This document shows, one piece after another, positions 30,111 through 38,778 of a stretch of DNA of 53,719 bases. Positions within the stretch are counted from its first letter, which is position 1, and each line of letters starts with the position of its first letter. A model generated the notes under the pieces. The model did not search any database. It was not told the origin of the DNA and saw only the letters and a program-made list of their open reading frames with translations. Origin of the DNA: Verrucomicrobiota bacterium (GTDB lineage Bacteria; Verrucomicrobiota; Verrucomicrobiia; Opitutales; Opitutaceae); contig VHCI01000009.1 in the NCBI GenBank assembly GCA_016871775.1, positions 1-53,719 of the forward strand, read 5' to 3'. The position numbers were made by a program, and so were the translations under genes.

Positions 30111-30566
30111 TCAGCCGCCCGGCGCGAGGACCCGGAGACCGGCGGCTTGGGCGAGGGCACGCTGGCGGAGATCAAAGGTGACGAAGACCCGGGCCTCCAG
30201 TTCCAGCGCGCCGGCGACGTGCACCACATCCAACGTGCGGGTGCCGAGGATTCGGCTGTGTTCCCGACTCAGTGCGGCCGCGCGCCGGAAAACCGCCCGC
30301 CAAGGCAATTCGACCTCCACGAAACGCCCCTGCTCGAAATCCTCGTCCAGAGCCGCGAGGGCGCCGGCACAGGCCCGCTCGGTGATCAACCCGCGGTATG
30401 CCGCCAGCGAGATGCCATTGATGATCTCAACCCGGCCGTGCCCGGTTACGCCCAGGGGGCCGCGGGTCGTGGCGCGCCAAGCAGCCACCTCCCGCGACTC
30501 CGGCTCGTGCAGGAAGAGCTTCAGCAGGGCGCTGGGGTCAGCGTAGATCCGCTCAGCGGTCGCCAC
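30111..30566 (-). CDS. PIN-domain toxin (VapC-type ribonuclease)
   Basis: A 151-residue PIN protein with all four acidic catalytic positions in place: Asp10 (YADPSALLK), Glu47 (GRVEIING), Asp113 (RTLDVVHV) and Asp132 (FVTFDLRQ). Such proteins cleave tRNA or other RNA with Mg2+ and are type II toxins. The start at 30566 overlaps the antitoxin gene by 14 bases, so the pair is translationally coupled. The stop is 2 bases from the convergent hydrolase stop. Length is slightly above the VapC norm. Expected to be inactive while bound by its antitoxin. Confidence 0.9.
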   Translation of the reverse strand: MATAERIYADPSALLKLFLHEPESREVAAWRATTRGPLGVTGHGRVEIINGISLAAYRGLITERACAGALAALDEDFEQGRFVEVELPWRAVFRRAAALSREHSRILGTRTLDVVHVAGALELEARVFVTFDLRQRALAQAAGLRVLAPGG

Positions 30567-30804
30567 GGTTCTCCTCGTGGAGTTCCCTGGCCCGGTCCGC
30601 GGACATCGGCTTGGGCTGCAGCTCCGTCAACCGGGCCCAATAATCCACCGGGGCCGGCGACCTTTTGCGGGGCGGCGCGTACGGGATCAATCGGTAGCGG
30701 GCCTCGCCGCTCTCCGTGAGCACCACCTCACCCTCCCGCTCCAGCAGTTTCCGGACCTTGGGGAAGCAGTTGCGGAGATCGCGGATCGTGGCGGTGGGAG
30801 GCAT
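30553..30804 (-). CDS. Phd/YefM or VapB-type antitoxin
   Basis: An 83-residue protein beginning MPPTATIRDLRNCFPKVRKL (ATG at 30804). The N-terminal half has the Phd/YefM fold with the RDLR...F...L pattern and VVLTESGEARYRLIPY strand; the C-terminal half is Pro-rich and charged (DYWARLTELQPKPM, ending EENRGDR), the part that would wrap the toxin. The upstream frame is open farther but has no good start and lies opposite another gene, so the short form is chosen. It should bind DNA at the palindrome at 30805-30826 to repress the pair. Confidence 0.8.
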   Translation of the reverse strand: MPPTATIRDLRNCFPKVRKLLEREGEVVLTESGEARYRLIPYAPPRKRSPAPVDYWARLTELQPKPMSADRARELHEENRGDR

Positions 30805-35081: not shown

Positions 35082-37166
35082 TCACGCCGCCCGGCCCGCC
35101 CCGGCCCGTCCCGGCGGCGGCGGCGCGGCCGCCCGCAGGGCGCGGTGGTTGACCGGCCGGCGCTGGTCCACGGTCAGCGGGGGCAAGTCCGGAAGGGAGT
35201 CCGCCCGCGCCTCACGCAGCCAGTACCGCGCCAGCGCGCGGAAATTATCCCAGCGCTCGGCGAGGAAGTGGTCCCGCGGAGTCATCGCCTGCCCGTCGCC
35301 CATCAGCGGCGGCGCCCCGGCGGCCTGCCGCAGCAGGCTGCGCCACTCGGTCAGCAGGCGGTCGAGGTCGCCCCGCCCCGCGGTTTCCACCGCATCCAGC
35401 ACCTCCCGGCTCCGCGCCCCTTCGGCCACCACCGCGCGGACGGCCTCCGCCGCGCCCGAGCCGTACTGCACGGGCACGCCCTCCCACAGCCAACCCTCGA
35501 TGGTCAGGCGGCGGTACGCGCGGCCGCAGGCCTCCGCGAGCCGCCCGAGCCAGCGCGGGTTGGTCCCGGTGAACCGGTCGCCCGCGAAGAGGTTCGCCGT
35601 GTCGAACAAAAGGTCGTCGAGCGGGTAGCGGTGATCCTCCAGCGCCGCCGCGAGCGCGAGGCCCTCGGGACCGAGGAAACCCGCGACGATCTCGCCCCGC
35701 ACGGTCAGGCGCAGCCGCCGGTCGAGCACGCCCGTGCGCTGCCATTGCCACAGCAGGGTGGGCTCCGGGGAAAGGGCCAGGCACTCCGCGCGCCGCGGGC
35801 ACGCGGGGCAGGCCGGACCCGGGTTGCGGTCGCGCCGCACGAGGCGCGCGCGGCCGGTGTCGGTGCGCTCGCCGCAGGGCAGGATCGCGGCCATCTCGGG
35901 CGGCGTGTGCTCGGCCCCAAGCGGCAGACTTTCCTCGCTGAAGAAACGGGCGGAGGCGGTGCGCGCCATATCCCCGGCCTCGCGGCCCCCGCGGAGTTGC
36001 CGCAGCAGGACCGCCCACGGTAGGGGCACCGCGCGGCGGAGGCGCAACGGCTCGGCCCGGCGCAGCCGCGGGGTGCCAGCGCTCACCAGCACGAAGCCGG
36101 CCTCGTCCAAGCCCCGGCGCCCGGCCCGCCCAACCATCTGGAGTAGGTCGTGTGGCGCGATCTCCCGCTCAAGCTGATCGTGGCGGTAGGCGGCGGCGGT
36201 GACGAGGACGGAGCGAAGGGAGAAATTGATGCCCGCGCTCAGGCCGAGGGTCGCGACCACGGCGCGGAGCTGCCCCGCCTTGGCGAGTGGCTCGATCACG
36301 CCGGCCCGCTGCGCGTAGCTCAGCCCGCTGTGGTGGAATGCGACCCGCGCCCGTAGCAGCCGCGCGAGGACCGGGCCGCACAGCTGCTCCTGCTCCGGTG
36401 TGAGGGTCAACGGATCCGCAAGCGGCAACTCCCGCGCGAACTGCCGCGCCAAGCGCTCCGCGTCCGCCCGGTGCGGCGCAAAGACCAGTACCGGACCCAA
36501 CCCCTCGCGAAGCGCCCCCGCTACTCGCCGGGACCAGAAGCCCTCGATGCACCGCGGCAGGCCGTGCACGAGCTCGTCCACCTCGACCTCCTCCAACTGC
36601 ACCGGCCGCTCGTGGTGCGCGATGACCTCGGGGTCGCGCCCCAACCGGCGGAACCACGCCGCCACGTCCTCCGGGTTGGCCACCGCGCCCGAGAGCAGCA
36701 GGAGCTGCAGGTCGCGCGGCGCCGACATCAGCACGCCCTCGTAGTGATTCCCGCGGTGCGCGTCCGCCAGCCAATGGTACTCGTCCACCGCAAGCATCCG
36801 GAACGGCTCCCCAGGGCCGGCGGCCGCCGGGTCGACGATTCGCCCCTGCACCGCTTCAAGGGTGGCGACGACCACCGGGGCCTCCGGCCGCACGCACAGG
36901 TCGCCCGTCGTGATGCCTACTTCCCAGCCGCGGGCTCGCCATTCGGCGAACTTGTCGTTCGCCAGCGCCCGCGTGGGCACAGTGAAGAGCGCCCGGCGCG
37001 CGAACGCCGTCTGCTCCACCCAGCGCTCGAAGACGTAGGTTTTCCCCGCCCCGGTCGGCGCACTCACGATCACATCCCGGCCCGCGCGCAGGCCGTGCAG
37101 CGCCAGCGCCTGCCACCGATCGGGCAGCATCAACTTCTGCAGGCCAGCAAAGGCGTCATGGAGCAC
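35082..37166 (-). CDS. DExH-box helicase (Ski2-like) with a four-cysteine cluster
   Basis: A 694-residue superfamily 2 helicase. Motif I is APTGAGKT (36-43), motif II is DEYH (128-131), and motif VI QMVGRAGRRG (343-352), with other motifs such as VPTRALA and VVATLGLSAGINF; this set is closest to Ski2/Hel308-type helicases. Between the helicase core and a C-terminal helical region are cysteines 431, 453, 456 and 462, spaced C-x21-C-x2-C-x5-C (the last three within PACPACPRRAEC). The GTG at 37164-37166 is the only reasonable start. Expected role is nucleic-acid unwinding or RNA surveillance in the cytosol; the cluster suggests an Fe-S or Zn site. Confidence 0.88.
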   Translation of the reverse strand: MLHDAFAGLQKLMLPDRWQALALHGLRAGRDVIVSAPTGAGKTYVFERWVEQTAFARRALFTVPTRALANDKFAEWRARGWEVGITTGDLCVRPEAPVVVATLEAVQGRIVDPAAAGPGEPFRMLAVDEYHWLADAHRGNHYEGVLMSAPRDLQLLLLSGAVANPEDVAAWFRRLGRDPEVIAHHERPVQLEEVEVDELVHGLPRCIEGFWSRRVAGALREGLGPVLVFAPHRADAERLARQFARELPLADPLTLTPEQEQLCGPVLARLLRARVAFHHSGLSYAQRAGVIEPLAKAGQLRAVVATLGLSAGINFSLRSVLVTAAAYRHDQLEREIAPHDLLQMVGRAGRRGLDEAGFVLVSAGTPRLRRAEPLRLRRAVPLPWAVLLRQLRGGREAGDMARTASARFFSEESLPLGAEHTPPEMAAILPCGERTDTGRARLVRRDRNPGPACPACPRRAECLALSPEPTLLWQWQRTGVLDRRLRLTVRGEIVAGFLGPEGLALAAALEDHRYPLDDLLFDTANLFAGDRFTGTNPRWLGRLAEACGRAYRRLTIEGWLWEGVPVQYGSGAAEAVRAVVAEGARSREVLDAVETAGRGDLDRLLTEWRSLLRQAAGAPPLMGDGQAMTPRDHFLAERWDNFRALARYWLREARADSLPDLPPLTVDQRRPVNHRALRAAAPPPPGRAGAGRAA

Positions 37167-37246: not shown

Positions 37247-38710
37247 TTAGGGCGCGGCCACGGTCGTGGCAGGCGCGATGCGGGCAATGCGCTCCGGTAG
37301 CAGGGCGTAGAGGGCGCCGTCCGGACCTGGCACGACGTGCCGGATGCGGCCGAGCTCCTTGAAGACGACCTCCTGCGCCACGACTTTGCCGTCCCGCAGC
37401 TCGATCCGGCGCAACTCCTGCGCCGCGAGGGTCGCGAGGAACAGCTGGCCCTTCCAGCGCGGGAACAGGTTGCCCTCGTAGAAACTGATGCCGCAGACCG
37501 CCAGGGACGGCACCCAATAGGTCACCGGCTGCTCCATTCCCTCCTGGCTCGTGATTTGGGTGATCGCGTCGCCGCTGTACTCCATCCCGTAGGTGATGAC
37601 CGGCCAGCCATAGTTGCGGCCGCGCTCGACTAGGTTCAGCTCGTCGCCGCCCCGGGGCCCGTGCTCGGTGCTGTAGAGGCGCCCGGTGCCCGGCTCGAAG
37701 GCAAGGCCCTGCGGGTTGCGGTGGCCGTAGCTCCAGATGGAGGAAAGGGCCTTGGGATCTTTGACGAAGGGGTTGTCCGCCGGGACGCGCCCGTCGTCGT
37801 GCAGGCGGTGCACCTTGCCGATCGGCAGGCCGAGGTCCTGGGCCACGCTCTTGCCGCCGCGCTCTCCAATCGTGAGGTAAAGGAGACCCGCCCGGTCAAA
37901 GGCCAGGCGCCCGCCGAAGTGCACGCCACCCGCCTTGATGTAATGCTCGGTCTGCGCCTGGTAGATGGTCTCCTGTTCGATCAGGGTGTTGTCCTTGATC
38001 TTCCCGCGCACCACGCGGGTCAGGCTCACGGCCTCGCCCTTGGCGTTGCGCTGCGGATCGCTGAAGGCGATATAGACCCAGCCGTTGCGAGCGTGGTCCG
38101 GGTGCGGAACCACATCGAACAGACCCGCCTGGCTGCCGGTGTCGACCGCCGGGAGGCCGAGCAAGGGCCTCGGCGCCAGTTTGCCCTTCTCGATCAAAAA
38201 GGCGTGCCCGCGCTTCTCAGTGGCGATCGCGAGGTCCGGCTTCAGGAAGGCGAGCGAGAAGGGCTCCTTCATCCCGCCGACCCACGTCGAGACCTGGTAC
38301 TCGTGCAGCTGGCTGCGGGCGGTCGCGAAATCCGCCGGCTTGGAGAACTGGATCTGCCCGGCCGCGTGCAACGCCCGCTGCTCGCGGATGTAGATCACCA
38401 TCGCGCGGATCTCCTTGTCGGGGATCGCGGTGCCCCAAGCGGGCATCCCCTTCTCGGGAAACCCCTGCCGGATGCTGCGCTCGATGCTGGCGTCGTCCGC
38501 CCCCGCGGTCCAGACGTCATCCAGCAGCGACCCAGCCTGCGCGCCCTGCAGCTTGTCGCCGTGGCAGTTCGCGCAGAGCTGCTGGTAACGCTGGGCAACA
38601 TTGTTGGGCCGGGGCTGACCAGCGGAGAGGACGGCGGCGCCGGCGAGGGCGAGCGCGGTGGCAAGGTTGATGCGGAGGAGGATAAACACGGCCGGCGAGA
38701 TAAGCCGCAT
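37247..38710 (-). CDS. Exported PQQ-type sugar dehydrogenase with N-terminal cytochrome c
   Basis: A 487-residue protein. A signal/hydrophobic N-terminus (ILLRINLATALALAGAAVLSAG) precedes a class I cytochrome c domain with haem motif CANCH (46-50) and axial methionine region FPEKGMPAW. From ~150 on a six-bladed beta-propeller of the GSDH family is seen: PFSLAFLKPDLAIATEKRG, DHARNGWVYIAFSD, GVHFGGRLAFDRAG, GHRNPQGLAFEPGTG (family signature), HGPRGGDELN and GRNYGWPVITYG. It likely oxidises an aldose in the periplasm using PQQ and passes electrons to its own haem. PQQ synthesis genes are not in the window. Confidence 0.9.
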   Translation of the reverse strand: MRLISPAVFILLRINLATALALAGAAVLSAGQPRPNNVAQRYQQLCANCHGDKLQGAQAGSLLDDVWTAGADDASIERSIRQGFPEKGMPAWGTAIPDKEIRAMVIYIREQRALHAAGQIQFSKPADFATARSQLHEYQVSTWVGGMKEPFSLAFLKPDLAIATEKRGHAFLIEKGKLAPRPLLGLPAVDTGSQAGLFDVVPHPDHARNGWVYIAFSDPQRNAKGEAVSLTRVVRGKIKDNTLIEQETIYQAQTEHYIKAGGVHFGGRLAFDRAGLLYLTIGERGGKSVAQDLGLPIGKVHRLHDDGRVPADNPFVKDPKALSSIWSYGHRNPQGLAFEPGTGRLYSTEHGPRGGDELNLVERGRNYGWPVITYGMEYSGDAITQITSQEGMEQPVTYWVPSLAVCGISFYEGNLFPRWKGQLFLATLAAQELRRIELRDGKVVAQEVVFKELGRIRHVVPGPDGALYALLPERIARIAPATTVAAP

Positions 38711-38778
38711 CGGCGCGCAGAGCGCAATCCCGGTTTCCGCCCGCGGGATCGGATCGCGGGGAAGCACCCGGCCCGGAC

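Follow-up and report, generated by a model that had tools for sequence, protein, structure and literature searches.

Iron-sulfur helicases known from the literature are of the XPD type or are helicase-nucleases such as Dna2 (in part PMC8514734), and in XPD the Fe/S domain is needed for helicase activity (PMC8514734). The role of the cluster in helicases is debated, with a structural relic and a redox sensor as the opposing views (PMC3466216). In Cas4, one N-terminal and three C-terminal cysteines form a staple; Sso0001 contained 4.3 Fe, and Cys-to-Ala variants were insoluble (PMC3466216). AddB, Cas4, and Dna2 share this order, one upstream cysteine followed by CX2CX5C, and in all three the staple brackets a domain and the protein has a PDDEXK nuclease. 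The Ski2/Mtr4 helicases (SKI2W, Dob1, and FRH) are eukaryotic and consist of RecA1, RecA2, winged-helix, and ratchet domains, with a GRAGRRGLD motif VI. In Mtr4 and FRH, an arch projects from the winged helix and has a hinge at its base (PMC5931499). Bacterial degradosomes are described as relying on DEAD-box helicases, with Ski2-like helicases as partners of the exosome (PMC5818665). Literature searches, with subscription journals sparsely covered, returned no report of a Ski2 helicase from Verrucomicrobia and, among the papers listed and judging by their titles and the opening of their abstracts (for PMC12839542 also by text passages), no Ski2-like helicase with an Fe-S cluster.

We analyzed a stretch of 53,719 nucleotides from a Verrucomicrobiota bacterium (contig VHCI01000009.1; hereafter, the window) that encodes a bacterial Ski2/Mtr4-type helicase with a strongly conserved four-cysteine staple at the insert site of the winged helix. 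The features of this gene are as follows.

35082..37166 (-): gene for the Ski2-like helicase (694 aa, starting at GTG); orthologues align from the identical start
36582..37133 (-): RecA1 domain, about aa 12-195, approximate borders (Pfam DEAD at aa 18-166; AF2 secondary structure)
36072..36581 (-): RecA2 domain, about aa 196-365, approximate borders (Pfam Helicase_C at aa 272-352; HMM alignment to SKI2W)
35955..36017 (-): N-terminal half of the winged helix, with helices at aa 384-392 and aa 397-404 (AF2; SKI2W profile alignment up to 762-772)
35781..35876 (-): four-cysteine module, aa 431-462, C-x21-C-x2-C-x5-C (sequence and conservation)
35874..35876 (-): Cys431, Cys1 of the staple, in 33/33 short forms
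35832..35864 (-): basic segment TDTGRARLVRR (aa 435-445), conserved; 108/112 short records fit the motif
35808..35810 (-): Cys453, in 33/33 short forms
35799..35801 (-): Cys456, in 33/33 short forms
35781..35783 (-): Cys462, in 33/33 short forms; replaced by Asp in six f25 long forms and in no other family
35682..35756 (-): C-terminal half of the winged helix, with a helix at aa 471-477, the wing, and a helix at aa 489-494 (AF2)
35217..35666 (-): domain resembling the helical ratchet, approximately aa 501-650 (AF2 helices; VIA alignment to FRH/Mtr4 spanning aa 12-661)

The open reading frame, its strand and coordinates, and the spacing of Cys431, Cys453, Cys456, and Cys462 agree exactly with the initial annotation, which had been made from the sequence and had called the protein Ski2-like with no visible nuclease domain. 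Both of these statements held up, the latter as far as Pfam shows. The two RecA domains carry APTGAGKT (aa 36-43) and the DExH box DEYH (aa 128-131) in RecA1 and a GRAGRRG-type motif VI, QMVGRAGRRGLDE (aa 343-355), in RecA2, and they are followed by a winged helix and a helical ratchet in the AF2 model and the VIA alignments; this combination places the protein in the Ski2/Mtr4 branch, with which it shares the domain order and motif VI. A PDB profile search seeded with the 33 short forms ranked Ski2, SKI2W, and yeast Mtr4 on top (E = 4e-50 to 1e-48), ahead of Brr2 (3e-48), human MTR4 (4e-47), and Hel308 (9e-45). Pfam recognized DEAD and Helicase_C in the window protein and no nuclease domain, PDDEXK included at E up to 1. 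The best NCBIfam matches to the core were Hel308 and PRK01172-type models (E = 2e-35 to 1e-29); membership in Hel308 was rejected at 102.9 bits against a cut-off of 1200 for NF040935 and 122 bits against 891 for the other best model. Motif III differs from that of the eukaryotic enzymes, which have SAT: it reads SGAVAN in the window protein (aa 159-164, positions 36675-36692), with SATVPN as its SKI2W counterpart. In several relatives it is SGS, and S159 and G160 are invariant across the 33 short forms.

AF2 modeling of the window protein (pLDDT 86.1, pTM 0.85) revealed helices 384-392 and 397-404, the cysteine module, and then helix 471-477 and the wing, the succession of elements in a winged helix that carries an insertion. 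Foldseek matched the model best to Mtr4 and Ski2 (E = 3e-26). VIA found FRH 5dzr as the best match (Z = 26.4, 553 residues, 3.8 A), along with Mtr4 6c90_A, a 694-residue chain from which the arch had presumably been removed (Z = 25.2, 562 residues, 3.3 A), Pol theta 9bpa (Z = 22.3, 555 residues, 4.1 A), and Hel308 2va8 (Z = 20.7, 529 residues, 4.0 A). The Ski2/Mtr4 helicases are thus the best match in sequence and in fold. Structure prediction, which the initial annotation had proposed as a check, supported the Mtr4/FRH/Ski2 fold and was less telling for the module itself, over which confidence is modest (means of 76, 67, 63, 80, and 78 for the blocks of residues 421-470).

The module lies inside the winged-helix domain, a location that the initial annotation had not given, near the site of the Mtr4/Ski2 arch. 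The two insertion sites probably correspond residue for residue, as we infer from HMM alignments to SKI2W that end at 762-772 and not from a superposition. The window protein has no arch-sized insert; among Ski2-like helicases, an arch, with its KOW module, is a feature of Mtr4 and Ski2 only. A four-cysteine staple goes unmentioned for Mtr4 and FRH in the available parts of the cited literature. No PDB match was obtained for the 100-aa region around the four cysteines at E up to 5. In XPD, Rad3, and DinG, the cluster domain is inserted into the first RecA domain. These are likewise SF2 helicases with four conserved cysteines, but the family and the spacing differ, and the XPD/Rad3/DinG type was rejected for the window protein, whose cysteines (aa 431-462) follow RecA2.

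An alignment of 33 short forms (54-93% identity to the window protein, which is included) showed all four cysteines of the module to be invariant, as are 177 of the 694 alignment columns; the other four cysteines of the window protein are kept in only 9, 8, 12, and 31 of the 33. The first gap is exactly 21 residues in each of 112 short-form records, near-duplicates counted. In loci from 57 relatives, 23 full-length proteins from the family of the window were read, the window protein among them, and all 23 have the four cysteines; five proteins from the order's other families (L026-L030) have none of them and about 200 residues instead. A scan of 84,980 species, one genome per species, with exact window peptides, which retrieve close relatives only, yielded 79 loci: 65 with the motif, six fragments that stop short of it, seven long forms without it, and one long form (L094) outside the initial pattern. 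Among 989 ORFs selected by codon-position GC from 1.25 Mb of the window's genome, CX2CX5C occurs in two, a NuoG and the helicase, the latter being among them by the choice of the window. Given this rarity, the module is more than a chance arrangement.

In the class to which the genome of the window belongs, the helicase was detected in 141 of 384 sampled genomes (match E of 1e-40 or better). The four cysteines are present in 28 short and 59 long forms; six further long forms have Asp in place of the last cysteine, 42 are long without the cysteines, and the remaining six comprise two truncated and four unread proteins. By record title, all named relatives from the species scan belong to Verrucomicrobiota, save two metagenome-assembled genomes (L098 and L106) that appear to be mislabelled. 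A survey of the phylum (387 genomes) gave as the best match outside the class an 885-aa frame of a second, separate Ski2-like family (E = 1e-30). Proteins of this second family, mostly about 850-1000 aa, occur in many of the same genomes (L140-L144; rows of about 30-35% identity); four of the five read have GRAGRKGFD and the fifth GRAGRRGFD, and inspection by eye of the residues displayed showed no CX2CX5C.

In the long forms with four cysteines, Cys1 lies in PCGLKTDAERARHVRR, which is homologous to CGLKTDAGRARLVRR, and is followed by 177-306 residues and then CX2CX5C (61 records, median 199). These relatives, with about 200 residues between Cys1 and Cys2, go beyond the initial annotation and bear out the likeness to the AddB, Cas4, and Dna2 staple that it had proposed: Cys1 and the triad bracket an insert in the long forms, as the staple brackets a domain in those nucleases, and the order of the cysteines is the same in the long relatives and, with a gap of 21, in the window protein. 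Both halves of the motif are present in 66 of 118 distinct long forms (six with Asp), neither in 52, and a single half in none; L125, with a chance cysteine at another site, is counted under neither after its row was corrected by eye. Halves that are kept or lost jointly follow the logic of a staple, as in AddB, Cas4, and Dna2. The initial annotation had regarded cysteines not conserved in orthologues as evidence against its reading; conservation is complete in the short clade and extends to most long forms, whereas 42 class genomes have a long form that retains the insert but lacks the cysteines, so that the staple is dispensable there. The six proteins with Asp for the last cysteine keep the other three (L146, L147, L149, L150, L194, and L220, all f25), a natural change of ligand. 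One long form with four cysteines, L208, has an oversized insert: more than 100 additional residues of low complexity, in part repetitive, separate Cys1 from the part that is conserved.

In a tree of 121 rows, presence of the cysteines changed three times and short versus long form once; one of the three changes rests on L116, a four-cysteine row on a long branch among cysteine-less rows that we left unplaced. Because the long-form rows are related, the 52 proteins without the motif represent two or three joint losses and not 52. The cysteines are most likely ancestral in the family, considering that they are common to both sides of the split between short and long forms. The root fell within the long forms in a 72-row tree and near the short forms in the quick 121-row tree, and we trust neither placement because the outgroup branch amounts to about 10 changes per column; with the two roots in conflict, the long form as the ancestral state was dropped.

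The insert of the long forms is placed like the Mtr4/Ski2 arch, both being insertions in the winged helix (for the arch, PMC5931499). Its roughly 200 residues gave no Pfam match (five long forms, PDDEXK at E up to 1), and an insert profile gave no convincing match among PDB sequences (best E of 0.2). Across 23 inserts, only W46, G102, D187, and P196 are invariant, and no acidic-lysine pattern was seen by eye. The AF2 model of the long form L094 (pLDDT 82.6, pTM 0.70) has an insert made mostly of beta strands; VIA matched it best to Mtr4 2xgj_B (Z = 27.9, 540 residues, 3.0 A). About 550 of its 825 residues align with Mtr4/Ski2 and much of the insert does not, which is no proof of a new fold. 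These data bear on the idea that the insert derives, by decay, from an AddB/Cas4-type iron-sulfur nuclease and that the short form is a staple left behind after deletion of the nuclease. Staple nucleases do hold a RecB-type domain between Cys1 and the triad, much as the insert is held here (PMC3466216), and the context of the triad is Cas4-like; set against the lack of a PDDEXK match, the mostly beta prediction, the four invariant residues without an acidic-lysine pattern, and the poor best PDB match, this origin appears highly improbable.

We consider it probable (about 60%) that the four cysteines are ligands of a single metal centre, most likely [4Fe-4S], and form a staple in the winged helix, a reading that draws on motif and conservation. 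A similar contiguous arrangement, CX13CX2CX5C, holds a stable [4Fe-4S] in NUBP1 (PMC8007109) and resembles the C-x21-C-x2-C-x5-C of the window closely; Wbl proteins bind [4Fe-4S] through CxnCX2CX5C (PMC7363131), and three cysteines form an oxygen-sensitive cluster in RseC (PMC11729352). The other loci, 1.66 Mb in total with 1167 ORFs, contained CX2CX5C nine times outside full helicase ORFs: in the helicase fragment L254, in four Cas4 proteins, which had been fetched by a Cas4 search and are a biased sample, in one [FeFe] hydrogenase, and in three MutY-like HhH-GPD proteins, which are close relatives of one another. Pfam NADH-G_4Fe-4S_3 covers the motif in NuoG and in the [FeFe] hydrogenase, and EndIII_4Fe-2S scored below the cut-off in two of the MutY-like proteins and was unreported in the third. 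MutY proteins carry [4Fe-4S]. Thus, the five non-helicase carriers that no search had picked belong to iron-sulfur families, which favours iron-sulfur over zinc without deciding between them.

The principal rival, a structural Zn2+ on the four cysteines, which would then be a staple of zinc and take no part in redox chemistry, is rather unlikely in our estimation. It has a precedent in DUF3799 (3L0A), where an identical four-cysteine arrangement holds zinc (PMC3466216), and it would suit a module that, in the window protein, is a short contiguous loop. The change of the last cysteine to Asp in six relatives fits it too, since zinc sites also tolerate an Asp ligand. Against it stand the iron-sulfur families of the non-helicase ORFs with CX2CX5C, both in the sampled genome and in the other loci, and a literature tally, crude and dependent on spelling, in which CX2CX5C is paired with "iron-sulfur" in 15 papers and with "zinc" in three, one of which is also among the 15. 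That the cysteines hold no metal and form disulfides or have separate roles seems very improbable: AF2 as run cannot show a metal, but the helicase is expected in the cytosol, the four cysteines are invariant together in the short forms, and the halves are lost jointly across 177-306 residues.

Around the triad, CARCSLAPVC of L273, a Cas4 protein from the same taxonomic order, is nearly identical to CARCSLVPVC of helicase L161, which is again in line with the Cas4 likeness noted in the initial annotation. When a triad profile was scored on 42 non-helicase stretches, shadow frames included, the helicase fragment L254 came first and Cas4 L273 second, followed by an unrelated L063 frame and Cas4 L272 and L271 in third to fifth place; Cas4 L270 ranked 22nd. 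This ranking is suggestive only. In 15 PDDEXK_1 loci of relatives (L255-L269), no CX2CX5C was seen in the long frames read, which is unexpected for AddB-like proteins. The L273 protein, from an order-level relative, is a Cas4-Cas1 fusion (Pfam Cas_Cas4 at aa 19-222 and Cas_Cas1 at aa 295-587). The helicase staple differs from that of AddB, Cas4, and Dna2 in sitting in a winged helix with no PDDEXK domain found by Pfam.

Under the [4Fe-4S] reading, the two RecA domains would translocate 3' to 5' on a single strand of nucleic acid, probably of RNA, as in Mtr4/Ski2, while the metal centre would staple both ends of the winged-helix insert. The cluster may rigidify the foot of this insert, which would be the hinge site of the Mtr4 arch, and the basic stretch TDxxRARxVRR beside Cys1 could touch nucleic acid. 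In the short form of the window, which lacks the insert, the staple alone would remain. We hypothesize that the cluster serves as a redox switch: if oxidative or nitrosative stress removed the cluster, the winged helix would become looser and the helicase less active. A more far-reaching proposal, which we put forward tentatively, is that this is the first iron-sulfur group in the Ski2/Mtr4 lineage, in which a [4Fe-4S] latch at an arch-like insert foot would act as the redox switch of a bacterial RNA-surveillance helicase; the latch would be independent of the XPD and Dna2 clusters, archless in the short forms, and dropped by lineages that keep the arch. If this is true, a cluster was placed independently at another mechanical hinge, and the short forms with the staple and the long forms with it, with Asp, and without it would make a natural series for the role of clusters in helicases.

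RNA is a first guess at the substrate, prompted by the likeness to Ski2/Mtr4: RNA helicases come first in the sequence searches and in comparisons with the predicted model, and Pol theta and Hel308, which are DNA helicases, rank somewhat below them. A bacterial Ski2/Mtr4-type enzyme is noteworthy in itself, considering that degradosomes are described with DEAD-box helicases (PMC5818665). Among the 79 loci, no conserved gene neighbour was found, the commonest flanking family occurring in 10 (ORFs of at least 100 aa, matches over 92% identity left out), so the neighbourhoods lend no support to a role in RNA decay or repair. In the window, the helicase gene is flanked by genes for a TonB-dependent receptor and a glucose/sorbosone-type dehydrogenase, which say little on function. 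A defence helicase of the Hachiman (HamAB) or BREX kind was rejected, there being no partner gene among the window neighbours, and so was a defence role in general, since the best PADLOC stretches (HamB, BrxHI, and PDC-M23B) fall in the helicase core. Matches were obtained to 22 plasmid and three phage records, none of which covers 80% of the query, and a scan of IMG/VR with two peptide patterns returned 38 stretches with no relative among them.

The flanking dehydrogenase (37247-38767, minus strand) has a cbb3-type cytochrome c domain fused to its N terminus, and genes of the same family adjoin the helicase gene in seven of the 79 loci. Elsewhere in the window, a PIN-domain protein (30111-30566, minus strand; Pfam PIN) is encoded directly downstream of the end of a short reading frame (about 30553-30804, minus strand), which we take to resemble a Phd/YefM-type antitoxin, presumably forming a VapBC-like pair with the PIN protein.
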